From NCBI RefSeq assembly GCF_026196735.1, contig NZ_JAPHUF010000007.1, positions 186,001-250,000 of the forward strand: DNA of 64,000 nt, written 5' to 3'. A program made the position numbers and the translations under genes. How positions within the stretch are numbered: position 1 is the first letter of the stretch; the number at the start of each line of letters is the position of its first letter. Under the pieces are notes generated by a model. It saw only the letters and a list, made by a program, of their open reading frames with translations. It was not told where the DNA came from and searched no databases. This DNA comes from Sulfurimonas sp. (GTDB lineage Bacteria > Campylobacterota > Campylobacteria > Campylobacterales > Sulfurimonadaceae). Positions 1,007 through 41,741 of the stretch are shown in pieces.

Positions 1007-1025
1007 GCAACTCTTTATAGTTTTT
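1007..1025. repeat. Left attachment-site repeat (attL)
   Basis: The 19-bp sequence GCAACTCTTTATAGTTTTT is identical to 41076-41094. Left of it lies chromosomal sequence (the start of the signal-peptide gene); right of it lies the element. In the reverse strand it reads the codons for KTIKSC, the carboxy terminus of the glycosylase whose body is on the far side of the element. Confidence 0.85.
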
Positions 1026-11609: not shown

Positions 11610-11612
11610 TTT

Positions 11613-13571: not shown

Positions 13572-15540
13572 AAACATTCAAAACTGTATTAAAGAAAAAA
13601 AATGTTTTGTTCTTCAAGGTGGAGCTGGTAGTGGTAAAACAGAAACTCTAAAAGAAGCTTTAAAATATATATCTGAAAATTATCCTGATAAAAGAGTAGC
13701 ATGTATTACCCATACAAATTTAGCTGTTGATGAAATAAAATCAAGAGTTGGAGATATCTATACAATTAGTACGATACATTCATTTTTAAATTCAATAATT
13801 AAAGATTATAAAAAGAATATTTTTCAATGTATTTTTGAATTGTTTAAAGTTAAAAAAATAGAACGCAACGAGATAGAATTCTATGATGGTGATGAAAAAG
13901 AGCAGAAAAAAAAAGAACATGATAAATATAAAAAAGTATATGAAAAGTATGCAAAAAAACTTTTTACCATAACTAGTGAAAGTATAGATAAACCTGAGGG
14001 TAAAAGAATTTATGATGCTAATCCTATAACATATAATACAAATTTGAATACTAGAATTGATGAGTTGAATGAAGTTATCAAAAGAGAAATAGAAGCAAAG
14101 GACTTCAATAAGATTAAATATAATGAAACACGATTTGATAGTTATAATGATTTAACTTTCGGACATGATGGATTACTAGAAATTGCTTATCAACTTTTTT
14201 CTACTTTTCCTAAAATAGGTAAAATACTTCAAGATAAATTCGACTATATTTTTATTGATGAATATCAAGACACAAATGAAAATATCATTGAAATATTTTT
14301 AAGTTATTTAGCACAATCACATACAACAACAATAGGTTTATTTGGTGATTCTATGCAAGCTATTTATGAAGATGGAATTGGTAATGTTCATAAATATGTT
14401 TCCGATGGTATTTTAGAAGAAATTATTAAAGAAGATAATTATCGATGTTCAGTTCAAGTAGTAGAATTTATTAACATGTTAAGAAATGATGGCTTAAATC
14501 AACAAGTACAGTTGAAACATACAGAATCTAGCCTTGATGAAAGACAAGGTAATGTGAACTTTTATTATTCAATAGTTGAAAACAAGCCTCATAGTCGAAG
14601 TTCTGATGGAGATAAAGCTCAATATCTTAGAAAACTAAATGAATTAATAGAATATGCGAAATCAACTCAAGATAATTATAAATTATTAATGTTAACAAAT
14701 AAATCTATTTCTCTTGAGGTAAATTTCAATAACCTATATGAGTCATTTGCACAGAGATATCAAGACCCTAAAGAATACATAGATGAAGCTTTGATTAAAC
14801 TACAACTTTTAGAGTTAGTAGAGTTTTGTCAAGCATATGAAAATGGTAATTATAATTATATATTAAGTGAATTAAAAAGAATTGGTTATCCAATAAAAAC
14901 AATAGCTGCTAAAACAAAATTAAAAAGTGATATAGAATATATATTAAACTTTGATGGTGCTGCTATTGAAGTTTTGGATTATGCATTTTCAAATAGTTTA
15001 ATTAAAAAATCTGAGATATTTGACTCATATATAGATAGAAAAGATGTATTTTTACGAAGTTTAGATAATTATGAGTATAGGACATTTAAGACAAATTATA
15101 ATGATGGTATGAACACATTCGCAAGAATGGTAAGTGGAGATGTAACTATAGAAGAAGAACAGTTTAAAGAGCTAGAAAAAGAGCTAAAAAAGGAAAGGCT
15201 ATTTACTAGTTTATTTTCACCTGCTGTAACTTTTCAAGAAGTAATTAATTACTATCTATACATAAATGAAACTACAGATTATATTACCATGCACAAAACA
15301 AAAGGTTCTAGTATTGACAATGTTATTGTTGTATTAGATGAATATTTTTGGATTAAATATGATTTTAGTAAAATTTTTGATCCCGAAATAAATGATAATA
15401 AAAAATTTGACAGCCAAAAGCTTTTTTATGTTGCTTGTTCAAGAACAAAAACCAATTTAACATGTATAAGGTTAATTAAAAGCGATGAGGAAGATTTACT
15501 AAATAATCTTTTTATAAATGCAACTAGAATAGATTTGTAA
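13558..15540 (+). CDS. UvrD/PcrA-like SF1 helicase, GajB-like
   Basis: In Gabija, GajB is an SF1 helicase-like ATPase that partners GajA. This 660-residue protein has Walker A LQGGAGSGKTE (about 20-29), AVDE and THTNLAV segments, Walker B FIDEYQDTNE (about 234), GDSMQAIYE, MHKTKGSSIDNVIVV (motif V-like) and FYVACSRTKTNLT (motif VI). Compared with classic UvrD the 1B/2B regions are divergent and short. Its start lies inside the end of the upstream nuclease gene (14-bp overlap), so translation is coupled and the proteins are presumably made in balance. A 62-bp gap with TATAAT at 15568-15573 then separates it from the restriction-modification operon. Confidence 0.85.
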   Translation: MTPLENIQNCIKEKKCFVLQGGAGSGKTETLKEALKYISENYPDKRVACITHTNLAVDEIKSRVGDIYTISTIHSFLNSIIKDYKKNIFQCIFELFKVKKIERNEIEFYDGDEKEQKKKEHDKYKKVYEKYAKKLFTITSESIDKPEGKRIYDANPITYNTNLNTRIDELNEVIKREIEAKDFNKIKYNETRFDSYNDLTFGHDGLLEIAYQLFSTFPKIGKILQDKFDYIFIDEYQDTNENIIEIFLSYLAQSHTTTIGLFGDSMQAIYEDGIGNVHKYVSDGILEEIIKEDNYRCSVQVVEFINMLRNDGLNQQVQLKHTESSLDERQGNVNFYYSIVENKPHSRSSDGDKAQYLRKLNELIEYAKSTQDNYKLLMLTNKSISLEVNFNNLYESFAQRYQDPKEYIDEALIKLQLLELVEFCQAYENGNYNYILSELKRIGYPIKTIAAKTKLKSDIEYILNFDGAAIEVLDYAFSNSLIKKSEIFDSYIDRKDVFLRSLDNYEYRTFKTNYNDGMNTFARMVSGDVTIEEEQFKELEKELKKERLFTSLFSPAVTFQEVINYYLYINETTDYITMHKTKGSSIDNVIVVLDEYFWIKYDFSKIFDPEINDNKKFDSQKLFYVACSRTKTNLTCIRLIKSDEEDLLNNLFINATRIDL

Positions 15541-15602: not shown

Positions 15603-17438
15603 ATGAAACAAAAAGAAAATGTAATGGACGAGCAGAGTATAAATGATATAAACTATGAACTTTTAAAAAAGCAATTTCCTCATGCTGTTAGTATTGATGA
15701 AGAGGGTAAATATATTATTGACCCTCAAAAGTTACAGATGAGTTTAGACCCTTCAAAGGCTGATATAAAAGAAGATGGTTATGGTTTAAACTGGGTTGGT
15801 AAAAAAGAGGCTTATCATACTGCGTTTTCTAAAAACTATAAAGTTTTAAAACCTTTAAACGATGACAATAGTAGGAACTGGGATACTACGGATAATATCC
15901 TTATTAAAGGGGATAATCTTGATGCCTTGAAGATACTTCGCCAAAACTATTTTGAAGCTATCAAGATGATATATATAGACCCACCTTACAATACTAAAAA
16001 TGATGGATTTGTTTATAACGATGATTTTACATCAAACACAGAAGAAACTCTTGAAGAGTTGGGATATGATAAAGAGTATGTTGATTATATTGAAAACATA
16101 CAAGGAGCAAAAACTCATAGCGGATGGTTGAGTTTTATGTACCCCAGACTTTTGCTTGCTAGTGATTTACTTAAAGATGATGGTGTTATTTTTATCTCTT
16201 GTGATGACAACGAAGTATCAGAATTAAAACTATTGTGTAATGAAATATTTGGTGAAGAAAATTTTATAGAACAGTTAGTATGGAAGCGTCGTTCTACTCC
16301 TCCAAATGATAGAGTTATAGGTAAAAATCATGAATATATCCTTTCATATGCTAAAAATATTGAAAATATAAAGATATTTCTTCAAAAGAGAAGTGATAAG
16401 CTTAATTCAAGATATGCAAACCCGGACAATGATCCAAGAGGTTTGTGGGTAGCTTCAGATTTAAGTGCAAACGGGAAGGGTGGTCGTTTAGCTGAATCAT
16501 GTTTGTTTGATATAGTAAATCCAACTACAAAAGATAGTTATTCTCCTCCTCAAAATAAATGTTGGTTGTATAATGAGGAGAAAGTAATTAAATTAATAAC
16601 AGATGGGCAAATTGGTTTTAGGAAAAGTACTGGTACTCCATTCTTAAAAAGGTACTTATCAGAAGTACGACAAGGATCAACATTAGCTACTATTTTAGAT
16701 AACCATGGTTTTTCACAAGATTCAGCTAAAGAGCTAAGAGATTTATTTCAAAATGATTTTTTTGATTTTCCAAAACCACTTAAATTAATTAAAACACTTT
16801 TAATAACTGCTCTTAGTAAAGATGATATAGTCCTAGACTTCTTTTCCGGAAGTGGAACAACAGCTCACGCAGTTATGGATTTAAATGCACAAGATAATGG
16901 AAGTAGAAAATTTATAGCAGTTCAATGGGCAGAAGAGACACCTGAAAAAAGTGAAGCTAAGAAAGCTGGATATGATACTGTGTTTGACATCACTCAAGAG
17001 AGAATAAAAAGAGCTGGAGATAAAATAGCTAAGGGTGATATTGGCTTCAGAACTTTTGAAATAGTCGAAGATGTAAAACAAAAGATATATCAAAAATCTT
17101 TAGAAGATGTAGATCAAAAAGATTTATTGGCATTTACTCAAAGCATAGTAGAATCAACAGAAGATATACTTTTTAATTTAATTGTAGCTGAGAGTTTACC
17201 TCTCAGCTGCAAGATAGAATCCCTTGTTGAAGATAAATTATACAAAGTGGATAATGTCGCTTTTGTACTTGGTGATTTAACAATAGATGAACTAATTAGT
17301 AAACTCAAAAGTAAAAAAGAGTTAGAATATATAACCGTATATTCTCCAAATATAAGTGATGATAAGTTTACACTTGAACTTGAAAGTGCAGTGAGTAGCA
17401 TAGGTATAAAATCTGACAAGCTTAGATTTAGAGGTTAG
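15603..17438 (+). CDS. Type III restriction-modification DNA methyltransferase (Mod)
   Basis: Mod recognises the target and transfers a methyl group from S-adenosylmethionine to adenine. The 611-residue protein has the catalytic motif DPPYNTKNDGF (from residue 126) before the AdoMet motif DFFSGSGTTAHAVMDLN (from about 412), the beta-class order of type III and related N6-adenine methylases. The central region between them is the target-recognition part. AAAGG precedes the ATG; an alternative start is residue 8 (MDEQ). The nuclease subunit gene begins 6 bp after the stop. I see no simple-sequence repeat in the coding region that would indicate phase variation. Confidence 0.92.
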   Translation: MKQKENVMDEQSINDINYELLKKQFPHAVSIDEEGKYIIDPQKLQMSLDPSKADIKEDGYGLNWVGKKEAYHTAFSKNYKVLKPLNDDNSRNWDTTDNILIKGDNLDALKILRQNYFEAIKMIYIDPPYNTKNDGFVYNDDFTSNTEETLEELGYDKEYVDYIENIQGAKTHSGWLSFMYPRLLLASDLLKDDGVIFISCDDNEVSELKLLCNEIFGEENFIEQLVWKRRSTPPNDRVIGKNHEYILSYAKNIENIKIFLQKRSDKLNSRYANPDNDPRGLWVASDLSANGKGGRLAESCLFDIVNPTTKDSYSPPQNKCWLYNEEKVIKLITDGQIGFRKSTGTPFLKRYLSEVRQGSTLATILDNHGFSQDSAKELRDLFQNDFFDFPKPLKLIKTLLITALSKDDIVLDFFSGSGTTAHAVMDLNAQDNGSRKFIAVQWAEETPEKSEAKKAGYDTVFDITQERIKRAGDKIAKGDIGFRTFEIVEDVKQKIYQKSLEDVDQKDLLAFTQSIVESTEDILFNLIVAESLPLSCKIESLVEDKLYKVDNVAFVLGDLTIDELISKLKSKKELEYITVYSPNISDDKFTLELESAVSSIGIKSDKLRFRG

Positions 17439-17444
17439 TAGTTT

Positions 17445-20390
17445 ATGAGCTTAAAAATAAAGTTTGATAGATTAGATTATCAAGAAAAAGCTGTTGATAG
17501 CATAAGTGATGTATTTAAAAATATTTCATTTAAGCCAAATGAAAATCGTAAAAGTAATCCATCGTTTGATTTACAAAGTTCTAAAACTATTTTAGTACAA
17601 AACATTACAGATACAAGAGAATCTAACAAAGTAGATATAGGAGAAATATCTATAAAAGATGAGTTAGTTATAGATACTCTTATGGAAACTGGTACTGGTA
17701 AAACTTTTACTTTTTTAGAATCTATTTATAGACTCAATCGTGACTATGGACTATCAAAATTTATCATCCTTGTGCCATCAAATCCTATACGACAAGGTAC
17801 GATAAAAAATATAAAAATCACCAAAGAGTTCTTTGTAAAAGAGTACGGTAAAAATATATCTGCATTTAACTACAGTGAAAAAACAATTTCAAATTATATC
17901 AATGCTAGTGATCAAAATATATCTGTACTAATATCTACTTATCAATCATTTAACAGTGCAAGTAACAAGATAAATAAAAAAGGTGTTGAGCAAAGCTTGA
18001 TAGGTCGTGCAAAGAGTTATATGGAAGCTATAGCATACTTGAAGCCTGTAATTATTATAGATGAGCCTCATAGGTTTGAGGGTAAGCAAACAGCAAAGTA
18101 TCTAAAAGAGTTTAATCCACTTTTTACACTTAGATTTGGAGCGACTTATAAAGGTGATGTTTATAAAAATCTAATCTATACTCTTGATAGTGTAGATGCT
18201 TTTTCACAAGGTTTAGTTAAAGCTATCACAGTTGATACAGTTGGAAATGAAAATGTTGATAATCATACAATTTTATTTAAAAAAGTAACTGGTGCAAATC
18301 AAAAAGACTATGAAGTTACTATCGAGTACAAGGATATTAACTCAAAATCTAAGAGTCTAAAACTTAAAAAAGGTGATAACTTAGGTGTGAGAGCTGACAT
18401 AGATTATCTCAATGGTTACATCATAGAAAAAATTACAAAGAGTGAAGTTCTCTTTGTTAATGGTATATCTCTACCTCTTGGAGAGAGTGAAAGTTACGGT
18501 GTCCTTTTAGATGCGATGCAGACGCAAATAGTTGACACTGCTATAAAAAACCACTTTGAGAGAGAAGAAGAACTTTTTAAGATGGATATAAAGGCTCTTT
18601 GTCTGTTCTTTATAGACAGGGTTGATAAATACCTACTAGATGATGGAAGTGCTGGAGACTTAGCTAAACTTTTTGAAAAACTATATTTGAAAAATTTAAA
18701 AGATGTACTGGCTAGAGTTGATTTAGATAGTGAATATAAGAAGTATCTCTTAAAAACAAAAGAAAGTCCAAAAGAATTGCATAGTGGGTACTTTGCAAAA
18801 TCTAAAAATCTAAAAGATGAAGAAGAAGCAATAGATCTTATACTTAATAAAAAAGAAGAGTTACTATCTTTTGATAGTAACTTGCGATTTATATTTTCTC
18901 AATGGGCTTTACAAGAGGGTTGGGATAATCCAAACGTTATGACACTTTGTAAGTTAGCACCAAGTAATTCTAAGATATCTAAACTCCAACAAATAGGTCG
19001 TGGTTTAAGACTTGCAGTCAATCAAGATGGCAAAAGAGTTACAAAAGATGATAATGATTTTGATTTTATTAATGAACTGTTTGTGGTGGTTCCATCAACT
19101 GAAAGTAACTTTGTAAGTTCTATTCAAAATGAAATAAGTGAACATAGTGTTAAACAAGTCTCTAAGTTATTCAATGAAGATATTATGGTAGAGAATGGTA
19201 TCGCTACTTCTTCAAGGTCTGCTGTTCGGCTTTTAGATGTACTAGAAGACTTAAAGTTTATAGCCATAGATGATGAAGATATGAGCGAGATAGTTATCTC
19301 TAAAGAGCAATATAGTTCAAAATCAAAAGAGCTAGAACTTTTAGATATAAAAGGCTGTGATAGTCAAAAACTTAAAGAGTATTTTGATAGTTATTTTAAA
19401 ACTACTAGCAGAATCAAAGCAAAAGATAGAAGTGGTAAAAAAGATAAGGGCAAAATAAAAATAGATAAAGATAAATTTAAAAAGTTTAAAAACCTATGGG
19501 ATACTTTAAATTATGATGCAGTAGTAAAGTATGATATTAACACTTCTGAGCTGATTGAAAAATCAGTTCAGAAGATAGACAGTGATTTTTTTATTAGTGG
19601 TCAAGATATTATAATTAAAAGAGATAGCCATGTAGAGGATGAAAATAAGCATGATAGTGAGAAAGATAGTGTGAAAGTACAAACTCACTCTATATTTACT
19701 ATCTATGAGTTCATTAAAACTCTATCTAATAATACAAAACTAAGTTTACAGACTATAGCAAGTGTGCTTCATGGCATAAAAAAAGAGAAGTTTGAACTCA
19801 TAGCAAAAAATGAAAACTTAGCACTTAAAAAGATAGAAGAACAGCTTGTTAGTGCTATATACGATACGATAATTAATAAAATATCTTACGATATAAAAGA
19901 GATAAAAACTTGTAGTACATCATTAACGGATAAAGATGGAAATGTAAAAGATTTTATAAATGTTGGAAGCTTAGGAGTAGAGACTTATAAAATAACAAAA
20001 CCAAGTATAAAAGAAAAATCTATATATGCTGAGAATTTTATGGAAGTAGATAGTAATATAGAAAAACTTACCATTGATGAGTCTGATGACAAGAAAATAA
20101 CGGTATTTGCTAAATTGCCAAAGGTTAATATTCCTACAGCTCATGGACGAAGTTATAATCCAGACTTTGGATATGTAATAAAACAAAATGATAAAAAAGA
20201 GTTGTATTTTATAGTAGAAACAAAAGGTTATGATAACTTTGACGAGATAAGTACTAAAGAAAAGCTTCAAATAAAAAGTGCTGAAGCTTTTTTTAAACAG
20301 CTAAAAGATCAAGGTGTAAATGTAGAGTATAGAACTAAGCTGAATAGTCCAGAGCTATCACAGATGATAAGTGATATTCAAAAAAAATAA
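17445..20390 (+). CDS. Type III restriction enzyme subunit (Res)
   Basis: Res is the ATP-driven translocase and nuclease that works with Mod to cut unmodified DNA. The 981-residue protein has METGTGKTFTFLES (Walker A, about 80), IIDEPHRFEG (DEPH box, about 206), SQWALQEGWDNPNV and QQIGRGLRLAV (motif VI), followed by a carboxy-terminal nuclease: PDFGYVI near 906 and FIVETKG near 925, the PD...ETK core of a PD-(D/E)XK fold. Length is normal for Res. It follows mod by 6 bp, and its TAA shares a base with the ATG of the next gene (TAATG). This ties the restriction pair translationally to the next gene, which is not a usual type III component. Confidence 0.92.
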   Translation: MSLKIKFDRLDYQEKAVDSISDVFKNISFKPNENRKSNPSFDLQSSKTILVQNITDTRESNKVDIGEISIKDELVIDTLMETGTGKTFTFLESIYRLNRDYGLSKFIILVPSNPIRQGTIKNIKITKEFFVKEYGKNISAFNYSEKTISNYINASDQNISVLISTYQSFNSASNKINKKGVEQSLIGRAKSYMEAIAYLKPVIIIDEPHRFEGKQTAKYLKEFNPLFTLRFGATYKGDVYKNLIYTLDSVDAFSQGLVKAITVDTVGNENVDNHTILFKKVTGANQKDYEVTIEYKDINSKSKSLKLKKGDNLGVRADIDYLNGYIIEKITKSEVLFVNGISLPLGESESYGVLLDAMQTQIVDTAIKNHFEREEELFKMDIKALCLFFIDRVDKYLLDDGSAGDLAKLFEKLYLKNLKDVLARVDLDSEYKKYLLKTKESPKELHSGYFAKSKNLKDEEEAIDLILNKKEELLSFDSNLRFIFSQWALQEGWDNPNVMTLCKLAPSNSKISKLQQIGRGLRLAVNQDGKRVTKDDNDFDFINELFVVVPSTESNFVSSIQNEISEHSVKQVSKLFNEDIMVENGIATSSRSAVRLLDVLEDLKFIAIDDEDMSEIVISKEQYSSKSKELELLDIKGCDSQKLKEYFDSYFKTTSRIKAKDRSGKKDKGKIKIDKDKFKKFKNLWDTLNYDAVVKYDINTSELIEKSVQKIDSDFFISGQDIIIKRDSHVEDENKHDSEKDSVKVQTHSIFTIYEFIKTLSNNTKLSLQTIASVLHGIKKEKFELIAKNENLALKKIEEQLVSAIYDTIINKISYDIKEIKTCSTSLTDKDGNVKDFINVGSLGVETYKITKPSIKEKSIYAENFMEVDSNIEKLTIDESDDKKITVFAKLPKVNIPTAHGRSYNPDFGYVIKQNDKKELYFIVETKGYDNFDEISTKEKLQIKSAEAFFKQLKDQGVNVEYRTKLNSPELSQMISDIQKK

Positions 20391-22567
20391 TGAAAAAAAT
20401 AAACTTCTGCACAACTCAAATCGTAAGAATAAAAAATCTATTAGATGTAATAGATTCAGACTTCTTCGCAAGAGTTATATCAAGAAAAATAATTGTTAGA
20501 ATTGATGATTTTATAGATATTACAAGAAGGTATAATAATTCTACTATTACAGATGGAGTATTAAAAAGAAATTTAAAAACAAAACTTAATGAACTAAATG
20601 GAGAGTTTGAAAATTTATTAAGGCTACAAAGACATAAGTTTTCAGCACATATTCAAGACTTAGAATTTGGATTGAGAGTTGATAGTTGGGCTAATATTAC
20701 ATATGAAAATATTATATTTTTTCATGATAAGATAATTGAGATATATAATCTACTAGAGCATCAAGCTGATTTTATAGTTATAAATAATGATTTATGTTTA
20801 TCATCGAAAGAAATGAAAAATATTAAAGCTGTTGTTAAAGATAAAGATATAGAAAGTAGCTTTATGATGTCTACTGATATACTGGCAATGACAAGATTAA
20901 ACAGTAGTTCAATGATACCATGCCATCCCATTCAAGATAAAGTTTTAACATTAAATAGTATTGTTATTATTTTAGATTTTGAGATAGCCTTGTATCAAGC
21001 CTTTGATGATATTCAATATAAATATATCTTACAGACATTGATTATAAATGATATTATTAGTTTTATCGACAATATTATTACTCCTGAAAATACAGACTAT
21101 ACAGGACTTGACGAACTGCTTGAAGATAAAGAGATATTAGATAATTTTTTAAACACTTTTAATTTAGATACTCTAGCCGAAATAAGAACTATTAGAAATA
21201 AAGTAGGTTCTCATATAGATAGAGATGATATATTTGAAGATATTATAAGTTTACTAGATAATAATAATTTAGAAAATACTTTATTAACTTATCAACATTT
21301 TTTAAATATTTTTTATAAAATATGTAATAATACTTTTTATCTTAAACATTTAACTTTACCACCTACAAAAATGAATGGTGTATTAGGAATGTCACATCAA
21401 CCAGATAAAACTTTTTTTGAAAATTCAATAATAACTACGGAGTTTATACATAATGATATAAATGATATTAATCTTTACAAAAACTATTTAAAGAAATTGT
21501 TTTTGTTAAAAGATGATTCCAACTATGAAGATATAAGGTATTTTTTCTATGATGCTTTAGCACATTCAGAAGTAGTAAAAATAGTCAAATTGGATAATAA
21601 AGATTTAGAATTAAAAAAAGCTCATAAGTTTTTTATTGATAAATTAAAAAGCAGTATAACATCTGATAGAAAAAGAATTATATTAAAGTTACTTAATGAT
21701 TGTTCAAATGGATACCCAAGTCAATTAACATATATCTTATTAGATACTTACAATACAAATAAACTAACAAACCTATTAAAGGAATATATAGTTTATCTAG
21801 GAAATATAGGACATGATCATAGTCAAAGTGCTATGATTATGTTAGTACAATTTTTAAATGCAAAAGATTTTAATGTTGAGTATTTTACATTATTATCATT
21901 ACTAAAAATTGATATAAAAAATAGAGGTAGTGACTGTTTTAATAAAAACTTAGTAATCGTAGAAAATGAATATTCATTAATCATCAAGGAAAGACTTAAC
22001 AAATTTAGCCCATTATTTAAAATATTTGTATCTATACTTTTAAGTTCAGAAATGATATTTAATCCTATGCTACAAACTTATCACAAATTTTTTAAAGAAT
22101 TATATTCTGAATATTTTGAAAATATTTCATTTGATAATTTACAATTATTAGATATAAACTTTTCAGATGAAGAAATTCAAACTATCAAAGATTTAAAATC
22201 TACTAATCAGTTATCAAATATCTTTATCATAATTGCAGAAAAATTAAAAAATAAAGAAGAAGCTCAATTTTTTTATCAAGCAATAGTTAATAATCTTCTA
22301 AAATTAAACTTTACACATTTACCATTTGTAGAACACCTAGCTTACTCAAATTACAAGATAGGTGATATTGATGAAGCAGTTAAAATATATAAAAGATTAG
22401 TAGATAAAAATCCTGACATTATAGAATATAGGATACAGTTAGGTCATTATTATTTAGAACAAAAAGATATTGTGGCATATAATGCTGCAATATCTTATAT
22501 AGAAATAAATTTTAATTTAAACAATGAACAACAAGAAACTTTAAACAAATTACGAGATGAAAGCTAA
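20390..22567 (+). CDS. Unknown TPR-like protein coupled to type III restriction genes
   Basis: I do not recognise this 725-residue protein. It is almost entirely helical, rich in Asn, Ile and Lys, with no membrane segment or catalytic motif. The last ~100 residues look like tetratricopeptide repeats (HLAYSNYKIGDIDEAVKIYKRLVDKNPD, then IQLGHYYLEQKDIVAYNAA). The amino part includes RTIRNKVGSHIDRDD, like the RNxxxH pattern of AbiV/HEPN-type helical domains (around residues 265-275); RxxxxH is the HEPN ribonuclease motif, so a HEPN-like domain is a possibility to test. Its ATG overlaps the Res stop, and its own end overlaps the RecQ/UvrD gene by 11 bp. Its place suggests a scaffold or sensor in a composite defence unit. 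Confidence 0.65.
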   Translation: MKKINFCTTQIVRIKNLLDVIDSDFFARVISRKIIVRIDDFIDITRRYNNSTITDGVLKRNLKTKLNELNGEFENLLRLQRHKFSAHIQDLEFGLRVDSWANITYENIIFFHDKIIEIYNLLEHQADFIVINNDLCLSSKEMKNIKAVVKDKDIESSFMMSTDILAMTRLNSSSMIPCHPIQDKVLTLNSIVIILDFEIALYQAFDDIQYKYILQTLIINDIISFIDNIITPENTDYTGLDELLEDKEILDNFLNTFNLDTLAEIRTIRNKVGSHIDRDDIFEDIISLLDNNNLENTLLTYQHFLNIFYKICNNTFYLKHLTLPPTKMNGVLGMSHQPDKTFFENSIITTEFIHNDINDINLYKNYLKKLFLLKDDSNYEDIRYFFYDALAHSEVVKIVKLDNKDLELKKAHKFFIDKLKSSITSDRKRIILKLLNDCSNGYPSQLTYILLDTYNTNKLTNLLKEYIVYLGNIGHDHSQSAMIMLVQFLNAKDFNVEYFTLLSLLKIDIKNRGSDCFNKNLVIVENEYSLIIKERLNKFSPLFKIFVSILLSSEMIFNPMLQTYHKFFKELYSEYFENISFDNLQLLDINFSDEEIQTIKDLKSTNQLSNIFIIIAEKLKNKEEAQFFYQAIVNNLLKLNFTHLPFVEHLAYSNYKIGDIDEAVKIYKRLVDKNPDIIEYRIQLGHYYLEQKDIVAYNAAISYIEINFNLNNEQQETLNKLRDES

Positions 22568-25500
22568 AAGTTTAAATAATAAAATGGAGAACAGCCATAG
22601 TATGAGTTTAGAACCTATTTATATAGATATAGAAGCTACTTTTAATGAAGATATACAAGAAGTAGGTTTAGTTTATAAAGAGGATGAATTAAAAACTAGT
22701 TCCATTAAGGAAGCTTTTGAATATATTCAAGCTACACCTACTAAGTACATCGCTGGTCATAATATTATTGCTTTTGATAAAAAAATATTAGAAACAAGCT
22801 CGATTGGTACTTTGCTACAAAACAAAACATTTATAGATACTCTTCCTGTTTCACTACTACTTTTCAATGAAAAAACATTTCATAATCTTCCTAAGAACTA
22901 CAAAAGTGAAGATAATTTTTTAAACAATCCAGTTAAGGATGCTAAGCTTTCTAAAGAACTATTATTGCGATCCATAGAGAAGTTTAAAACACTACCAACA
23001 CTACAACGAAATATCCTATATACATTACTCAAAGATGAAGAAGTATTTAAAGGTTTTTTTGAGTTCATAGTTCATGAAAATATATTTGAAGAGCTGAGTG
23101 CTATTGTATTACAAGGGTCAATTCTTAATATATTTAAGACTATTATTAGAAATACTGATGTTTTAAAAGAAGCATTAGAACTTCATAGGATTGAACTTGC
23201 TTTTATCTTAGCTATTAGAATGCCAGAGCTTGAAGTAAATGCTCAACCACCTAAGGTTCTTTATGATTATAAAGAGATAACATCACTACAATCACGACTA
23301 TGTTTTGATTATGACAGCTCTGTAAATGAACTAAGCTCTACTGCCAAAGATATTTTTGGGTTTGGTACATTTAGAGATTTTCCAAGGCAAGATGCTACTC
23401 TTGAAACAGGTGCAATAATTTCTCAAAAAGAGATAGTAACTGCAGCTTTAAAGAATGAATCATTTCTTGCCATATTGCCAACTGGTGGAGGAAAGACTTT
23501 CACATTTTGGCTTCCATCAATTATAAAAGCAAAATCACTAAAAACACTTACCGTAGTTATCTCCCCACTTCAAGCACTTATAAAAGATCATATGGATAGT
23601 TTTCATGAAACAGTTGCCAACTATAAGGCTGTCGCACTTAGTGGATATATGTCCCCCAGTGAGAGAGCCGATTCAATGGAAAAAGTAGTAAATGGGGATG
23701 CTGATATATTATATATAGCGCCAGAGAGTCTTAGAGCTAACTCAGTATTTAATTTACTAAAAAACCGTGTAATAGAAAGGTTTGTAATTGATGAAGCTCA
23801 CTGTCTTTCAACATGGGGAAATGATTTTCGACATGATTATTTCTATATTGGTGCATTTATCAACGACTTATTAAAAGAAAAACCATTCCAAGACCATATT
23901 CCAGTATCTTGTTTTACTGCAACAGCGAAACCAAAAGTAATGGATGATATTACAGATTATATAGAGTCTGCTTTAAATCTAAAAATGAATCGTTATATCG
24001 CAGTACCAGAGAGAAAAAATCTTGATTATGAAGGATATGAACTTAATAGTGATAAAGCTAAATATACAAGTTTGTTAGAGCTCATAAATACGAAAGAGGG
24101 TTCTACTCTTATATATATTCCATCATCAACGAAAAAGTGTGATGAAGTTGCAGAGCAACTAGCTTTAGATACTGGTAAAAATGTTAAATCATTTCATTCT
24201 AAGCTAGATACTGATATTAAAATGCAAATCTTAAGAGAATATATAGATGATGATGTAGATATTGTTGTAGCGACTACTGCTTTCGGAATGGGAGTTGATA
24301 AGCCAAACATAAAGAATGTAATTCACTATGAGATATCAGAATCATTAGAAAACTACTCTCAAGAAGCAGGTAGGGGTGCAAGAGATCAAAATATTAGAGC
24401 TTCATGTCCATTACTGTTTTCTCAAAGTGATTTAGATAAGCATTTTACTACCTTAACTCGTTCAAAAATAAATCCAGATGAGATCAATGCTATTTTCAGA
24501 GTATTAAAAAATGATGGTCGTAATCCAGTTACATTAACAACTAGAGAGATAGCTTCACAAGCTGGTTGGGATACCGAAGATAAGTCTAGTGATTATGATA
24601 TGAAAGTAAAAACAGCTTTACTAGAACTTGAGAGAGAGGATTATTTAGAGCGCTCAAGAAATAGAGTACAGTATTATGCTGACGCAGTAGCAAAGGATTC
24701 TTTGGAAATTTTACAAGAAGAGTATAAAACTAAAGAGTATAGTGAAGATTCAAAGATTAGATTGTCTCGTGTATTGCAAACTCTATTAGGAAGTGGAAAA
24801 CCTGAAGCTGTTCAACTAGATGAACTAACTGAGATACTAGGCTATTCTCATGAAGTAGTTACACAGTCAGTATTAGAACTAAAAGAGATGAATATTATTT
24901 CAGATGCAAAAGATTTGAGTTTAAAATTAAGTAGAGAGAATATAAACTTGTATCAAAGTTATTGTCAAATTGAAAAGATATTGTACGAGTATTTAATCAA
25001 AGAGCATAGTCATACAGTTCGGATGAGCGAATTAAATCAAATACTCTTTGATGATTCAACTCTGAATATTAAAAATGAAAATATTAGCTCTACAATCAAG
25101 GTATTGCTTAAAAGCTGGATTGGGTATAAGCATCAATTTAAATTTAATCGACTTGATAGACAAAAAGATCTTTGGTACTTTGAGTTTATAGATGCTAAGA
25201 GAGTAAAAACTATAATTGATTATAAGCATTATATAGGATTGAAGACTCTTGAGTATTTATCAACAAATCTTTCCCAAAAGAAAGCTACTACAAAAGAAAC
25301 AGTTGAATTTTCTATGCTTGAACTTCAAAAGGCATTAAATCTAAAAGAGGAACAAAGTTCAAAAATTATTGATAAAGCACTACTGCACCTACATGAACTA
25401 AGGATATTGGAACTAGGTAATGGTCGGTTTATCTATTATGCACCAATGAATATTAAGAAGATGGATAAGATGCTCGCTCCAAATAAAAAATATACAAAGC

Positions 25501-27416
25501 TTGAGTATAAATCTAGACTTGAACCATACTACCAGAGAAAAATGGAGTCTATTCATATAGTTGGTGAATATTCTGAAAGACTTATCAAAAATTCCAAACA
25601 AGCACAAACTTTCATGAAAGATTATTTTACACTTTCGTACATAATGTTTGTTAATAAGTATGGTGAGTTAAAAGAAAAATTTAAAAGACCTATGACAGAG
25701 TATCGTTACAATAAAGTTTTCAACAGTCTTTCGGATGAACAGAAGAAAGTTATAGATGATAAAGAATCTCAAGCAATGATGATCCTAGCTGGACCTGGAA
25801 GTGGGAAAACAAAAGTACTAGTTCATAAGATAGCTTCTCTCATCTTACAAGAGGATATTAAAGCTGATCAATTTCTTATGTTGACATATTCTCGTACTGC
25901 TATGATGGAATTTAAATCTAGACTGTTTGAGTTGATTGGTCAACTTGCTTACGATATAGATATATTTACATTTCATGGATTCTCTCTTCAATTGATAGGT
26001 AGAGAAGCTAGTAGTAATAAGGATATACTTCATAATGTTGTATCTTTAGCTGCACAACAAATTAACGAGAACAAGATAGATATACCTTTTAAAACGGTTG
26101 TAGTGCTAGATGAGTATCAAGACATTAATGCAGATGGATTTGAGTTAATAAAAGCACTATCTAATGCTCACGAGAATAAAAAACGGCTTATTGCAGTTGG
26201 TGATGATGACCAGTGTATCTTATCTAATGTTAATGGTGCAGATATAAAGTTTATCCAAGAATTTGAAACAGAGTTTGGACTTAATGATGAAGAGGAAAAA
26301 TCATATGCTCAGTATGAACTTTTAACTAATTTTAGAAGTACTCAAAACATCGTAGAATACTCAAATAAATTTATTCATAATGTTCCTATAAGATACAAAC
26401 AACACCCTCTAATATCTCATTCTAAATATCAAGGTGAAGTTATAATAATCAATTGTGATTCACAGTATCTACAACAGCCAGCAGTTGAACAAGTTAAAGA
26501 GCATATAGAAGCCAAGAAAAGCCTTGCTGTATTAGCTTTTAGCAATAACGAAGTAGCAGATATTTATGCTTTACTTCATGATGAAAATATTGCTGTAAAC
26601 TACTTATTAGATAATGATGGCTTCAAATTAAATAGCTTAGTAGAAATTAGGTTTTTAGATACACTATTAAAAGATAAAGAGCTTAATGAAAATCTTCTAT
26701 GGGAATCATATGAAAAAGTAAAACAGCGATACAGTGGGTCTAAAAATCTATCTATACTCTACAAGATAGTTAAAGGATTTATAGATGACCATGAAGTATA
26801 TACACCATCTCTATGGCATATATACTTGGATGAAATATCTTCAGAACAGCTTATATCTACTTACAATAAGGTTTTAGTATCTACTATACATAAAGCAAAA
26901 GGTAAAGAGTTTGACACAGTTGTTTTAGTTGCTCATAAGATGCTACTGAATGATGATTTCATCAGACTTTTTTATGTTGGAATGACACGAGCAAAGAAAA
27001 AGCTAATTATTGTTACTGATAATGAATATTTCAAATCTAACTCAACTGCATCAGTTGAAAATATAGTAAATAATAAACAGTATATAGAACCAAGTAAAAA
27101 AACTTTTGTAATGGGCTTATCAGATTTATATATGAGTTTCCAATCTCAGCATGATTCACAAAATATTGACCTAATTGCAGGCTCACAGGTATATGTACAA
27201 GAGCTAACAAAGAATAAACCGTATTGTCTCATTCAAAATAATATATTAATCGCTCAGCTATCTAAAAAGATGCAAAATACTATTCTTACTCATGAAGCAC
27301 AAGGCTATTCATTATCAGATGTCACTATTGAAAATGTTATTGAGTGGTTTGATGAAAAATCTGGAAGTTATAGACAGCTTCCATTGTGTAAGATATCAAT
27401 GAGTAAATTGTCTTGA
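22557..27416 (+). CDS. DEDD exonuclease–RecQ helicase–UvrD helicase fusion protein
   Basis: One 1619-residue polypeptide carries three machines. Residues about 18-160 have YIDIEATF, AGHNIIAFDKKIL and a later KDAKLSKELL, matching Exo I-III of a DnaQ-like 3'-5' exonuclease. Residues about 285-620 are a RecQ core: ILPTGGGKT (Walker A, 308), VIDEAHCLSTWG (412), FTATAKPKVM, TTAFGMGVDKPNI and SQEAGRGARDQ. Winged-helix-like segments follow. From about 1060 comes a UvrD module: ILAGPGSGKTKV (1079), LDEYQDINADG (1185), VGDDDQCI, STIHKAKGKEFDTVV and YVGMTRAKKKL. Start choice is uncertain: 22557 (overlapping the previous gene) or 22602 (MSLEP). Fusions like this recur in defence islands. Here it is the last gene of the Mod-Res operon. 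Confidence 0.88.
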   Translation: MKAKSLNNKMENSHSMSLEPIYIDIEATFNEDIQEVGLVYKEDELKTSSIKEAFEYIQATPTKYIAGHNIIAFDKKILETSSIGTLLQNKTFIDTLPVSLLLFNEKTFHNLPKNYKSEDNFLNNPVKDAKLSKELLLRSIEKFKTLPTLQRNILYTLLKDEEVFKGFFEFIVHENIFEELSAIVLQGSILNIFKTIIRNTDVLKEALELHRIELAFILAIRMPELEVNAQPPKVLYDYKEITSLQSRLCFDYDSSVNELSSTAKDIFGFGTFRDFPRQDATLETGAIISQKEIVTAALKNESFLAILPTGGGKTFTFWLPSIIKAKSLKTLTVVISPLQALIKDHMDSFHETVANYKAVALSGYMSPSERADSMEKVVNGDADILYIAPESLRANSVFNLLKNRVIERFVIDEAHCLSTWGNDFRHDYFYIGAFINDLLKEKPFQDHIPVSCFTATAKPKVMDDITDYIESALNLKMNRYIAVPERKNLDYEGYELNSDKAKYTSLLELINTKEGSTLIYIPSSTKKCDEVAEQLALDTGKNVKSFHSKLDTDIKMQILREYIDDDVDIVVATTAFGMGVDKPNIKNVIHYEISESLENYSQEAGRGARDQNIRASCPLLFSQSDLDKHFTTLTRSKINPDEINAIFRVLKNDGRNPVTLTTREIASQAGWDTEDKSSDYDMKVKTALLELEREDYLERSRNRVQYYADAVAKDSLEILQEEYKTKEYSEDSKIRLSRVLQTLLGSGKPEAVQLDELTEILGYSHEVVTQSVLELKEMNIISDAKDLSLKLSRENINLYQSYCQIEKILYEYLIKEHSHTVRMSELNQILFDDSTLNIKNENISSTIKVLLKSWIGYKHQFKFNRLDRQKDLWYFEFIDAKRVKTIIDYKHYIGLKTLEYLSTNLSQKKATTKETVEFSMLELQKALNLKEEQSSKIIDKALLHLHELRILELGNGRFIYYAPMNIKKMDKMLAPNKKYTKLEYKSRLEPYYQRKMESIHIVGEYSERLIKNSKQAQTFMKDYFTLSYIMFVNKYGELKEKFKRPMTEYRYNKVFNSLSDEQKKVIDDKESQAMMILAGPGSGKTKVLVHKIASLILQEDIKADQFLMLTYSRTAMMEFKSRLFELIGQLAYDIDIFTFHGFSLQLIGREASSNKDILHNVVSLAAQQINENKIDIPFKTVVVLDEYQDINADGFELIKALSNAHENKKRLIAVGDDDQCILSNVNGADIKFIQEFETEFGLNDEEEKSYAQYELLTNFRSTQNIVEYSNKFIHNVPIRYKQHPLISHSKYQGEVIIINCDSQYLQQPAVEQVKEHIEAKKSLAVLAFSNNEVADIYALLHDENIAVNYLLDNDGFKLNSLVEIRFLDTLLKDKELNENLLWESYEKVKQRYSGSKNLSILYKIVKGFIDDHEVYTPSLWHIYLDEISSEQLISTYNKVLVSTIHKAKGKEFDTVVLVAHKMLLNDDFIRLFYVGMTRAKKKLIIVTDNEYFKSNSTASVENIVNNKQYIEPSKKTFVMGLSDLYMSFQSQHDSQNIDLIAGSQVYVQELTKNKPYCLIQNNILIAQLSKKMQNTILTHEAQGYSLSDVTIENVIEWFDEKSGSYRQLPLCKISMSKLS

Positions 27417-27488: not shown

Positions 27489-29237
27489 ATGCAAGCGTTT
27501 GAACCAAAAACATTAACAATAGCAGAACTATTTGGTAATCAAGATAGTTTATATAAAATTCCGAGATACCAAAGACCATATAAGTGGGAAGGTGATCAAG
27601 TTGAACAACTTTGGGATGATATATACTCTGCGTATGAAGACAATATAAGCAACTATTTCTTAGGTTCAATCATTACGGCGAAGGATGGTAGTTCAATAGA
27701 TATTATTGATGGTCAACAGCGTATGACAACATTAATGATTTTCTTTTGTGTTTTAAGAGATGTTTTTCCAAATATTAATGAAGATACAGATAACCCAGAT
27801 GCAATTGATAAAGACACTATTGAAAATTTTATTTACTATAAAAAGAAATTTGAGCGATTAACACTACTAACCGACCCTCAGCATAGAGGTGATTTAGAAA
27901 ATTTAATTATCAAAGGTTCAGTTTATGATCTAAAAAAACCTTATAAATATGAAATAAAAATAGATGAAAAGCCTAAATATAAATTTATGAATACTGCCTT
28001 AATATTTAAAGAAAAATTAGAAGAAATTGGTGAAGAGAATATAGGCGAATTTATTAATTATTTGTTTAATAATGTATCAATAATCAGAATAGATTGTATT
28101 GACAGAGGCTTTGCTATAAAATTATTTCAAGTACTAAATGACAGAGGTATGGATTTGACATCGTCAGATTTAATCAAAAGCTTTTTACTTCAAAAGATCG
28201 AAGATAAGTATAAAAATGAAGAAGATGATACTGGAAGAAAAGATGAAGAGGATCAGTTTATTTCTGAGTGGAGGAAAGCAGAAAATATTTTATTAGATAC
28301 TGATTTAAGTATGAACGATATGTTTATAGTTTATGAATATTATTTACTTGCTCAAAATCCTAAAAAATCATTATCTGATGAACTACAGGAACAGTTTAAA
28401 GATGGTGACGCAAATACCATATTGCATGATTTTGTGGAGTTTTCTGAAATATATAGAGATGATATTTGCAATAAAGAAGACAAAGTGATCTATTCATTTT
28501 GGTATCTTAGATGGAGCGTATATTGGAAGTCTATACTATTAGCTTCTCTACACAATAACTATAGTGAACATGAAAAACTATTAATAATTTTAAGACGCTT
28601 TTACTATCTTTATTGGATTGCTGGTAAAACATTATCTAAAGTAAAACAACTTTCATTTAATATTATTAAATGGGTTAAAGAAAACAAGTCTATTGATTTC
28701 ATAGAAAATGAAATTAATGTAAAACTAAAAGCTGATAATATTATAAATTTAGCAAAAGATAACTTGTCATCAGACGATATATATAATACAGCTTGGAGCA
28801 AGCCTCTTATTTTATTAATTGAGTATGGTATTACGGATGATAGTAAATTGTCTTTTATCGGATTAAGTAAAGATTTGCATCTGGAACATATACTTCCCAA
28901 AAAATATAAAAGTTTTCCAGAATGGGATCATATAACAGATGAAGTTGCTTTAGAATGGTTAAATAGTGCTGGGAATCTTACACTATTAAGTGGTAAAAAA
29001 AATATCGAAGCTAGTAATAACCCTTTTGATCAGAAAATCAGTATTTACAGAGGTAAAGGAAAATATAAAGATAAAGATACTTCTATCACAGCTTTTGAGA
29101 TGACAAAACAAATAGTTAGTGACTTTGAACAAAACAAATATAATAAAGAATGGACAGAACAAGCTATTGAAGATAGATATGATTGGTTTTGTGAGAAAGT
29201 AACAGATATTTTAGATATCTCATGTGAAGATCAATAA
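27489..29237 (+). CDS. DUF262/DUF1524 protein, GmrSD-like type IV restriction nuclease
   Basis: The GmrSD/BrxU group cuts DNA carrying modified bases, using a ParB-like nucleotidase domain (DUF262) and a His-Me finger nuclease (DUF1524). In this 582-residue single-chain form, the DUF262 signature is plain at the amino end: YKIPRYQRPYKWE (about 22-34), YFLGSII and IIDGQQRMTTL (about 76-86). The nuclease signature is LHLEHILPKKY (His near 464-466) followed by NSAGNLTLLSGKKNIEASNNPF (about 495-515). A charged linker (EDDTGRKDEEDQ) joins the domains. AGGAAAAG precedes the start. It stands in its own transcription unit, 19 bp before the membrane-protein gene of the NACHT operon, with which it may share a transcript. 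Confidence 0.88.
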   Translation: MQAFEPKTLTIAELFGNQDSLYKIPRYQRPYKWEGDQVEQLWDDIYSAYEDNISNYFLGSIITAKDGSSIDIIDGQQRMTTLMIFFCVLRDVFPNINEDTDNPDAIDKDTIENFIYYKKKFERLTLLTDPQHRGDLENLIIKGSVYDLKKPYKYEIKIDEKPKYKFMNTALIFKEKLEEIGEENIGEFINYLFNNVSIIRIDCIDRGFAIKLFQVLNDRGMDLTSSDLIKSFLLQKIEDKYKNEEDDTGRKDEEDQFISEWRKAENILLDTDLSMNDMFIVYEYYLLAQNPKKSLSDELQEQFKDGDANTILHDFVEFSEIYRDDICNKEDKVIYSFWYLRWSVYWKSILLASLHNNYSEHEKLLIILRRFYYLYWIAGKTLSKVKQLSFNIIKWVKENKSIDFIENEINVKLKADNIINLAKDNLSSDDIYNTAWSKPLILLIEYGITDDSKLSFIGLSKDLHLEHILPKKYKSFPEWDHITDEVALEWLNSAGNLTLLSGKKNIEASNNPFDQKISIYRGKGKYKDKDTSITAFEMTKQIVSDFEQNKYNKEWTEQAIEDRYDWFCEKVTDILDISCEDQ

Positions 29238-32046: not shown

Positions 32047-32450
32047 TAATTAATAGCAATGATAAAAGTCATTTAGTTCTTTTGCCTAAAAAAATATCTA
32101 AAGATAAGTTTTTACTTCAAGCTAAAGTTCGTAAAGGTAGTTACTTTTATAAAAGGTTAGAAAGTATATATGTTTCTTTGACATCATCTACAACTAATCT
32201 AGAAGAAGAATATAAACTATACTACACTGAGTATGAAAGTTTTGAAGAATTTTTATATCATAAATACCCTCATTTAGACGAAAAAAGCCTGGATTTAATC
32301 AACAATAGTTTATGTACTAAGCAGTATAATTTTGTACGAGGATACATGTATGAACTAAGTGATTATCAATTACATATGCTTATTGATTACTCTGATGAAT
32401 TTATAGGAAAAATTAATAATTTACTTAAGGCTGAATTATATGAAAATTAA
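32043..32450 (+). CDS. Small unknown protein in NACHT–radical SAM operon
   Basis: This 135-residue protein overlaps the NACHT stop (ATGA) and itself overlaps the next gene by 11 bp. I recognise no family. It begins with a strand-rich part (HLVLLPKKISKDKFLLQAKVRKGSYFYKRLE) and continues with acidic helices rich in Tyr and Leu. No membrane segment. Possible roles are an adaptor between the ATPase and the small NSSST protein, or a carrier that presents a peptide to the radical SAM enzyme, but there is no clear RRE-type motif to support the latter. Confidence 0.65.
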   Translation: MIINSNDKSHLVLLPKKISKDKFLLQAKVRKGSYFYKRLESIYVSLTSSTTNLEEEYKLYYTEYESFEEFLYHKYPHLDEKSLDLINNSLCTKQYNFVRGYMYELSDYQLHMLIDYSDEFIGKINNLLKAELYEN

Positions 32451-32856
32451 AACTGACTTTGTTACAAATAGCTCATCTACATCATTTATTATAATGACAA
32501 AAGATGACTGGAATAAAGATGACTTTATAAGTTTAATGGGTGTAGAGAAAGACTCTGATTTCTATGAGATGATGAATGGGTTATATCACACACTAAGTGA
32601 TGCAATGGAAGATATTGAAGTAGCTATTGCAAGTGAATATTGGAGAGATGCATATAAAACTATTGAAGAATTTATTACCAAAGAATATTCAAAAGAAGTA
32701 TATGAAAAATATTTGCTTGCTAAAAAAGAGAATAAAAAAATTTATGTAGGTAGATTAAGTAGTGATGATGAAGCTTTCGCAGCATATATTTGTGTTGATT
32801 ATTTTGAAGAAGAAGATGAGAAAATTTATTTTAACTATACAAATTGTTATTGGTAA
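32440..32856 (+). CDS. Small protein with DFVTNSSSTSF amino terminus, possible radical SAM substrate
   Basis: The 138-residue protein opens MKIKTDFVTNSSSTSFIIM. This conserved start (often with five serines) recurs at the head of many otherwise unrelated uncharacterised bacterial proteins, as far as I recall. The rest is acidic and helical, ending in a beta-like YFEEEDEKIYFNYTNCYW. The invariant N-terminal Asn/Ser/Thr block is unlikely to be there for folding alone and could be a recognition or modification site. The radical SAM/SPASM gene starts 3 bp after the stop, the arrangement of a precursor and its modifying enzyme. The substrate role is a hypothesis; the motif and spacing are seen directly. 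Confidence 0.65.
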   Translation: MKIKTDFVTNSSSTSFIIMTKDDWNKDDFISLMGVEKDSDFYEMMNGLYHTLSDAMEDIEVAIASEYWRDAYKTIEEFITKEYSKEVYEKYLLAKKENKKIYVGRLSSDDEAFAAYICVDYFEEEDEKIYFNYTNCYW

Positions 32857-32859
32857 ATT

Positions 32860-39609: not shown

Positions 39610-40911
39610 CTACTCTAATTTCATCATTTTCATTACTTGTTTGATTTTATCATCACTAGCATTTGGATATAACTTTTTTAATGCTGTATATTCATCTTCA
39701 ATTATTTCAACATCTATTGCATTATTTGGTGCATCTATAACAGCTGCAAAGGTATCTTGTGCTTCTGCTGCTTGTTTGGTATCATCATTAAGATAATTTG
39801 ATTGTGTGGTGCTTAACAGCTTATGGGAAAGCATTTTAGATACAGCATATATATCTGCACCATTTCGTAGTGCAACTACCGCCACCATTGAACGAAGATC
39901 ATGCATAACCATACTAATAACACCAATACTTTCCATCGCAAGTTTCCAATGATAATGTACCGATATAGCTTTTAAATCAAAGATTTTACCCGAAGTGGTT
40001 TTTTGTATCTTGATAGCATTTAGAAGTAGGGGAGTTAAAGCATAAGTAACTTCTGTATTAGTTTTAGTATTTTCTTTAGGTAGCATGAAAGACCCATAAG
40101 GATATTGCTCTGTTTTTTTATAGTTGATATGAGAATGCTCCATCAACATTGTTTCGTTAATTCTTCTACCACTAAGTAAAAATGAAAATACACCTCTGGC
40201 TATTGGATGCTTATACTCAAGCAGTGTTCTAGCTATAAGTGTGGCTTTTTCATCATCTCCACTAAATTTTTCTTTAGACTTTATTTTCGGTAATATGATT
40301 TTTTTCCAATTTAAAATTACATCATTTGTATCTAGTAATGGCTTGAGTACAGCCTTTACTATAGTGATGGTTTTTGGTTTTTTCCCTTTCGATATCATCT
40401 CATTTATAAGGTTTTGAATATCATCTTCTGTAATTTCATCTATAATTTTATTATCTAGTTTTTTAATCCAAACATTATAAGATCCGTTATACATTCTTAC
40501 CGTACTAGCACTAACTTCGATTGATTTACGAGTTATCCAAGCACTATATACAGATTTGAATTTTCTATCTGTAGTATCTATCTTTGGAATAATTTTTTTT
40601 TCAATTTTTAAGGTACCTTTGGATTTAAGAGTATTTTTAATTTCTTCACGCTTACCAAGCAATGATCCAACAGCTTTAGATATACTAGTACCTTTAGCTA
40701 TTGTAAATGTTTCTTTACCTCTAGCTCTCTTATGATTATGCATAGCCTCCACGGCTACTTCAATCTTGTAACTTCTATTTGGTGGTTTCGTTTCATTATC
40801 TTTTGTATAATTTATTTCATTGTGACTAATCAGAATATACATTCCCGAAGCTGTACCATTGTTTAGTTTGATTTTTACTGGCTTATACTCTGAAACACCC
40901 ATTAACAGCAC
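39610..40911 (-). CDS. int: Tyrosine recombinase (site-specific integrase)
   Basis: The integrase cuts and rejoins the 19-bp repeats at the element's ends. The 433-residue protein has a strand-rich arm-binding amino part, a core-binding SAM-like domain (about 115-200) and a catalytic domain with FLLSGRRINE (Arg 249/250), HDLR (H337, R340), LSHKLLS (H363) and nucleophile Y373 in QSNYL. All are present, so it should be active. It reads inward from the right attachment site, with an inverted repeat (40921-40964) directly upstream that may be its own binding site. A carboxy extension after Y373 of about 60 residues ends in KQVMKMMKLE. An earlier in-frame ATG choice (M4) is possible. Confidence 0.95.
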   Translation of the reverse strand: MLLMGVSEYKPVKIKLNNGTASGMYILISHNEINYTKDNETKPPNRSYKIEVAVEAMHNHKRARGKETFTIAKGTSISKAVGSLLGKREEIKNTLKSKGTLKIEKKIIPKIDTTDRKFKSVYSAWITRKSIEVSASTVRMYNGSYNVWIKKLDNKIIDEITEDDIQNLINEMISKGKKPKTITIVKAVLKPLLDTNDVILNWKKIILPKIKSKEKFSGDDEKATLIARTLLEYKHPIARGVFSFLLSGRRINETMLMEHSHINYKKTEQYPYGSFMLPKENTKTNTEVTYALTPLLLNAIKIQKTTSGKIFDLKAISVHYHWKLAMESIGVISMVMHDLRSMVAVVALRNGADIYAVSKMLSHKLLSTTQSNYLNDDTKQAAEAQDTFAAVIDAPNNAIDVEIIEDEYTALKKLYPNASDDKIKQVMKMMKLE

Positions 40912-41069: not shown

Positions 41070-41741
41070 CTAGAGGCAACTCTTTATAGTTTTTAAATCA
41101 TTTAGTGCTATTTTTTTGTCATCTGGGTTTCTAAGCAGATGATTCGGATGGAAAATAGGGACAAGTTTATACTCCTTGAAGTCTATAACATGACCACGAA
41201 CACTTTGAAAATTTTCATTCTCCGATGTAACTTTAGCATAAGCATCTTTACCTAAGGTAACGACTACTTTTGGTTTAACAAAATCAATCTGAGAAAATAG
41301 ATAGTCTTTGCATGAATCCCATTCAGAACTTGATGGAGTATTTGAATTCAGGGGCTTGCATTTTATAGCATGTGTAAAATAAACATCTTCAATTTTTAAA
41401 CCTAAAACATTATTTATCATATTAGTTAAAATTTCACCTGAACGACCACTATAGTAAGAATTTGTACTGTCTTCATTAAGAGATACGCTATAGTCGATTA
41501 TCATTATATCTGCATTTTCATTGCCAAAACCACTCATACTTTGAGATCTTGATTTACTAAGGTCGCATAGATGACATGTAGATATATTTTTAGTTAGTTC
41601 TTCCAAGTTGTGAGGTTTTTCATGAGAAGTTTTATGGTTAACAGAAAAAGTGTCGCTATATTCAAAACCTAGAGCTTTTAGCCGATATAGATTCTGCAGG
41701 AGAAGTAAGTTTTGAAAAGACCTCAATAATATACCTTTCAT
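41070..41741 (-). CDS. Uracil-DNA glycosylase, family 4-like; integration target of the element
   Basis: The enzyme removes uracil from DNA to start base-excision repair. I choose ATG 41741 (MKGILLRSF), giving 223 residues, normal for the family; a longer frame to 41831 has no supported start. Visible motifs: CHLCDLSKSR (one cluster-Cys pair), a motif-1-like DIMIIDYSVSLNEDSTNSYYSGRSGEIL, FTHAIKCKPLNSNTPSSSEWDSCKDYL (second pair of cluster cysteines) and VPIFHPNHLLRNP (motif 2). The usual GEAPG is replaced by IIDYSVS, so the water-activating motif 1 is atypical and activity is less certain. The last codons are the att repeat. It diverges from the signalling gene at 41833. Confidence 0.8.
   Translation of the reverse strand: MKGILLRSFQNLLLLQNLYRLKALGFEYSDTFSVNHKTSHEKPHNLEELTKNISTCHLCDLSKSRSQSMSGFGNENADIMIIDYSVSLNEDSTNSYYSGRSGEILTNMINNVLGLKIEDVYFTHAIKCKPLNSNTPSSSEWDSCKDYLFSQIDFVKPKVVVTLGKDAYAKVTSENENFQSVRGHVIDFKEYKLVPIFHPNHLLRNPDDKKIALNDLKTIKSCL
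41076..41094. repeat. Right attachment-site repeat (attR) inside glycosylase 3' end
   Basis: GCAACTCTTTATAGTTTTT is identical to 1007-1025. In the minus strand it encodes the final KTIKSC of the uracil-DNA glycosylase. The element supplies CTC TAG afterwards (Leu, stop), where the ancestral locus would have had ATA TGA (Ile, stop). Confidence 0.85.

Follow-up and report, generated by a model that had tools for sequence, protein, structure and literature searches.

Probable separate modules on a Sulfurimonas mobile defence island: a type III restriction pair, a tandem-HEPN protein and a DEDD-RecQ-UvrD fusion

Gene content of the locus and its island

The locus is composed of four co-directional genes in a window of 64,000 nucleotides (the whole stretch of DNA analysed) from a Sulfurimonas genome. 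As the first-pass annotation had described, these are open reading frames for proteins of 611 (Mod), 981 (Res) and 725 amino acids, followed by one ending at 27416 (Table 1). Mod and Res are spaced by 6 bp, and the Res stop and the start of the third gene share one base (TAATG; -1 bp); both gaps had been read correctly. Regarding regulatory signals, promoter and terminator scans of the locus performed no better than shuffles.

Mod matches the PADLOC model MTase_III (5.9e-172), PDB 6k0w (1.2e-97) and, over at least most of its length, the EcoP15I Mod structure 4zcf_A (5.2e-79), and its translation contains DPPY and FSGSGTT, so that DPPY, FxGxG and type III Mod homology are all present. Res has a full-length match to EcoP15I Res (4zcf_C, 9e-103) and a match to PRK15483 (1.9e-167); its METGTGKT, DEPHRF and PD...ETK nuclease motif align with those of EcoP15I Res and provide both the SF2 motor motifs and the C-terminal PD-(D/E)XK nuclease. 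The earlier assignment of the two genes to type III is confirmed by PADLOC, by homology to PDB 4zcf and by these motifs. Judged from their sequences, Mod and Res are an ordinary, intact-looking EcoP15I-type pair, in which Mod would methylate and recognise sites and Res would translocate and cut unmodified DNA. Both subunits are homologous to those of EcoP15I, with the motor and PD-(D/E)XK motifs kept in Res, and the system in the window differs from EcoP15I by the extra genes downstream of Res.

All four genes are carried on a segment of approximately 40 kb enclosed by 19-bp direct repeats (GCAACTCTTTATAGTTTTT), with an integrase gene at its right end. In another genome of the same genus (G009), the two flank genes are adjacent, and a single near-copy of the repeat lies between them (L110 around 14670). 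The segment also carries Gabija (GajA/GajB), GmrSD-like, Avs2-like, AbiEii and Fic genes. The repeats, the integrase and the other defence genes together indicate that the four genes are neighbours on a mobile defence island.

Other gene arrangements were seen on the same island. At 9891-15540, an RmuC-family gene lies 3 bp ahead of the Gabija genes GajA and GajB, the three sharing one orientation, and it also scores against the PADLOC model of DRT-associated RmuC. A GmrSD-like type IV restriction protein with N- and C-terminal domains is encoded 72 bp past the fusion (27489-29237) and has HEC-06 as its best PADLOC match. At 29500-33894, the gene for an Avs2-like protein of 848 amino acids (about half of Avs2) overlaps two small ORFs and is followed by a radical SAM/SPASM gene with a weak match to pVip models; this region is a possible unrecognised cluster.

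Table 1. Features of the locus, of the island that carries it and of related loci
Feature	Position	Strand	Basis
Left 19-bp direct repeat, att-like	1007..1025	+	second copy at 41076
mod, type III DNA methyltransferase, 611 aa	15603..17438	+	PADLOC MTase_III, PDB matches, motifs
res, type III restriction subunit, 981 aa	17445..20390	+	EcoP15I Res match, PRK15483
Tandem-HEPN (AbiU2-like) and helical/TPR protein, 725 aa, probable RNase effector	20390..22567	+	Pfam HEPN_AbiU2, TPR_6
First HEPN_AbiU2 match, aa 58-125, RHKFSAH at aa 81-87	20561..20764	+	genome-level profile scan
Second HEPN_AbiU2 match, aa 242-285, RNKVGSH at aa 269-275	21113..21244	+	genome-level profile scan
TPR repeat of the 725-aa protein, aa 650-676	22337..22417	+	Pfam; consensus TPR structures matched
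DEDD exonuclease-RecQ-UvrD fusion, ~1604 aa	22602..27416	+	RecQ/UvrD profiles; blastn boundaries, N-terminal alignment
DEDD exonuclease domain	22602..23054	+	conserved residues, AlphaFold model, fold match
RecQ-type SF2 helicase domain, aa 289-640	23421..24476	+	TIGR01389 3.3e-74; Walker A, DEAH, motif VI conserved
UvrD-type SF1 helicase domain, aa 1056-1500	25722..27056	+	PF00580 2.5e-30, PF13361 1e-16; motifs conserved
Tyrosine integrase of the element	39610..40911	-	Pfam Phage_integrase 8.7e-7
Right 19-bp direct repeat, att-like	41076..41094	+	near-copy in G009
Methyltransferase/HNH gene near fusion	L041:12425-14138, L054:13010-14755, L063:6975-8717

The 725-residue tandem-HEPN/TPR protein

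The Pfam family HEPN_AbiU2 matches the whole 725-residue protein at 1.9e-8 (34.4 bits, cut-off 26.8) in two stretches, each of which falls singly below the cut-off in the genome-level scan, and TPR_6 matches at 5.2e-6. Each stretch carries one RX5H motif, and the catalytic RX4-6H pattern of HEPN proteins is thus found twice; the two halves of the protein can be aligned with the motifs in register, the match being weak (E 0.13). The first-pass annotation had pointed to one HEPN motif. The second motif, RNKVGSH, is the real counterpart of that claim, but the count of one was wrong, since RHKFSAH had been missed. The AlphaFold model of the protein is all-helical and of low confidence (pLDDT 45.5).

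The gene is nearly an orphan. Its sole long homologue is a remnant of 386 residues in one genome (G058, 48% identity), standing alone between hemH-like and rnz-like genes (names read from translations), and a second trace of 27 residues lies in G504, away from Mod/Res. Searches of 397 genomes of the phylum, 200 of the family, plasmids, phages, viral contigs and genome contigs, the last scanned with short peptide patterns that would miss distant relatives, gave no further convincing homologue and no intact second copy of the gene. The R and H of both RX5H motifs are unchanged between the protein in the window and the G058 homologue, and R269, N270, K271 and H275 of the second motif are invariant.

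The presence of HEPN genes in restriction-modification (R-M) operons is known from Anantharaman et al. (2013, PMC3710099), who listed AbiU2 HEPN genes in such operons, linked at least 16 HEPN clades to R-M, and proposed that R-M restrains HEPN RNases, which a neutralised R-M system releases in a PrrC-like manner. The earlier idea that the third gene encodes an RNase effector fits this published pattern and gains support from the two HEPN_AbiU2 stretches with their RX5H motifs, the activity itself being predicted. The domains could instead be non-nuclease, RNA-binding or structural, in a protein that serves the restriction complex as a TPR scaffold, and the low-confidence model would be compatible with such a role. 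However, the proteins of the window and of G058 have both RX5H motifs intact and unchanged, and the R is followed by a polar residue, a trait of active HEPN families (PMC3710099), so a scaffold is highly unlikely. From its motifs, we regard the 725-residue protein as a probable RNase and a candidate for abortive infection, which joins the restriction-linked RNase candidates.

Among known systems, the protein resembles AbiU2-family HEPN proteins and the PrrC–EcoprrI pair in having an HEPN RX4-6H domain encoded beside restriction genes and, probably, in a second-line attack on RNA; it differs from them in combining two HEPN domains with a TPR C-terminus. A further difference from PrrC–EcoprrI is that the system in the window is type III and not type Ic, and that PrrC's NTPase sensor domain is absent. 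LA2681-type proteins (listed in PMC3710099) also join HEPN to TPR, whereas the Pfam match of the protein described here is AbiU2 and not LA2681.

Since the third gene starts on the last base of the Res stop, it is plausibly co-expressed with the restriction pair, and, appended behind Res, it may depend on the operon. Alternatively, it could be an autonomous abortive-infection gene whose place behind Res is due to chance, with an incidental TAATG and no regulation by Mod/Res. The G058 and G504 remnants, without Mod/Res nearby, and a distinctly lower G+C content (22.7%, against 31.3% in Mod, 29.2% in Res and 30.9% in the fusion) are in its favour, while the AbiU2 HEPN genes reported in R-M operons (PMC3710099) and the overlap that ties its expression to the operon argue against it; on balance we hold a chance landing to be rather unlikely. 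For a gene appended to the operon, we infer an RNase activity and its trigger along the following lines. The two AbiU2-like HEPN domains would probably form a composite RNase site, which the helical/TPR part would keep silent and then trigger, perhaps via Mod/Res by analogy with PrrC–EcoprrI. After failed restriction, the RNase would degrade RNA and arrest the cell as a second line.

The DEDD-RecQ-UvrD fusion

The identity of the fourth gene as a DEDD–RecQ–UvrD fusion, as first annotated, is upheld by profiles, conserved residues and the fold match of the DEDD domain. Walker A, Walker B and motif VI are present in each of the two motors, and the helicase motifs are conserved across 26 aligned fusion sequences. 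The start of the gene had to be revised. In three congeneric genomes (G015, G333 and G327), the DNA homology, at identities of 87%, 77% and 75%, begins exactly at the in-frame ATG at 22602 and extends to about 27407 (blastn), the flanks being unrelated; most fusion homologues also begin near this ATG in the alignment, for example with MISEPIYMDIE or MNIEPLYIDIE. The homology and the homologue starts give a fusion of about 1604 residues and a gap of +34 bp to the third gene. The start at 22557 (1619 residues) was rejected as a first-ATG artefact, and the -11 bp overlap reported earlier between the third and fourth genes falls with it.

Four acidic residues of the N-terminal domain (D24, E26, D74 and D128, in the numbering from 22557) are conserved across 26 fusion sequences and provide the D-E-D-D signature. 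The AlphaFold model of the domain, made without sequences from plasmid records, has a pLDDT of 86.8, and over model residues ~2-151 it superposes with Z 11-12 on the Pol II exonuclease, S. aureus DinG and the TREX1 homologue Plex9.1 (VIA-align). The domain differs from DEDDh exonucleases, in which a His stands five residues before the last Asp: this position is occupied by Asn123 (same numbering; window 22923-22925), invariant in 26 aligned homologues and paired with the His of a TREX-like exonuclease in a sequence-based alignment only. With Asn123 in place of His, exonuclease activity of the fusion is likely, not certain.

The joining of an N-terminal DEDD exonuclease to a helicase is shared with WRN and S. 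aureus DinG, and the exonuclease region of the latter superposes on the fusion domain at Z 12; the fusion differs from both in that a single polypeptide combines RecQ with another motor, of UvrD type. Its RecQ core scores against the models of RecQ-type defence helicases (PsyrT/RqlH, DpdF), whereas the architecture is other than theirs and no Dpd or PsyrA partner was seen. No description of RecQ-UvrD fusions, and no paper combining a type III R-M system with HEPN and RecQ, was found in the open-access literature. We take the fusion to be an independent helicase-nuclease and not a subunit of the restriction system; it would unwind DNA and trim it by itself, any substrate assigned to it being presumptive.

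Linkage of the four genes in other genomes

The partnership proposed earlier for the fourth gene was subjected to a preset linkage test, namely whether genes three and four belong with Mod/Res. Fusion homologues were identified in 24 of 397 Campylobacterota genomes and also on a number of plasmids, whose sources range from Arcobacter relatives to Bacteroides, cyanobacteria and proteobacteria. At the 29 loci compared (24 from other Campylobacterota and five from plasmids, a few of the contigs having short flanks), the fusion was never found alongside Mod/Res or the HEPN gene; it behaves as a single-gene module, and the proposed partnership failed. Conversely, none of 20 Res loci has gene three or gene four, and the third gene offers to this test just its two remnants, neither near Mod/Res. 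Conserved linkage of the four genes is thus absent throughout (0/29 fusion, 0/20 Res, 0/2 HEPN). Fusion and Res occur together in six other genomes, against 5.05 expected (Fisher p=0.39), and in these they are always unlinked. In the blastn comparison, the Mod-Res homology blocks of four genomes break off with the stop codon of Res, and homology restarts at the ATG of the fusion.

These results bear on the composite restriction system first proposed for the locus, in which Mod/Res would recruit the HEPN protein and the fusion, so that DNA is cut, its ends are unwound and degraded by the DEDD-RecQ-UvrD protein, and RNA is destroyed by the HEPN arm. If true, such joint action would make one lineage-specific type III system that attacks both DNA and RNA. 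All four genes run in one direction at close spacing (6, -1 and +34 bp), and no terminators were predicted between them in a scan no better than chance; all four may be co-transcribed. However, of the 35 pairs of adjacent genes in the window that share a direction, 17 have gaps of at most 10 bp, including GajA/GajB just upstream, and with close spacing so common the short gaps are weak evidence for joint function. The fusion stands without Mod/Res at all 29 loci and co-occurs with Res at chance level, Res loci carry other passengers, and the homology blocks break at the gene boundaries. A four-part machine is therefore not supported, and both the composite system and joint action of the four products appear very improbable. 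This removes a tempting but unsupported machine from the locus. We consider it fairly probable that the four genes form separate modules on the island: the type III pair, an appended HEPN RNase candidate and an independent helicase-nuclease. The contrast in G+C content of the HEPN gene with the other three is consistent with separate modules.

The passengers of related type III operons are themselves of interest. Among close Res relatives (72-80%), those between mod and res are an MNT-HepT pair, RhuM and YhcG, and the more distant Res of G009 has a KAP NTPase in this position. In Campylobacterota type III operons, the mod–res gap is a place where defence genes have repeatedly been inserted, and these operons serve as landing sites for such genes in the phylum. 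Variable passengers between mod and res were observed in the Campylobacterota type III operons at L094, L095, L096, L097 and L110.

The widespread DEDD-RecQ-UvrD protein merits separate study. Mod/Res was rejected as its regular partner, and its few recurrent neighbours are other genes. A DUF2779 gene overlaps the fusion start in two different genomes (L042:12483-13973 and L044:6368-7849) and is a better candidate partner than Mod/Res. At three loci (Table 1), the gene found no more than 342 bp from the fusion encodes a class I methyltransferase that includes an HNH-like part.
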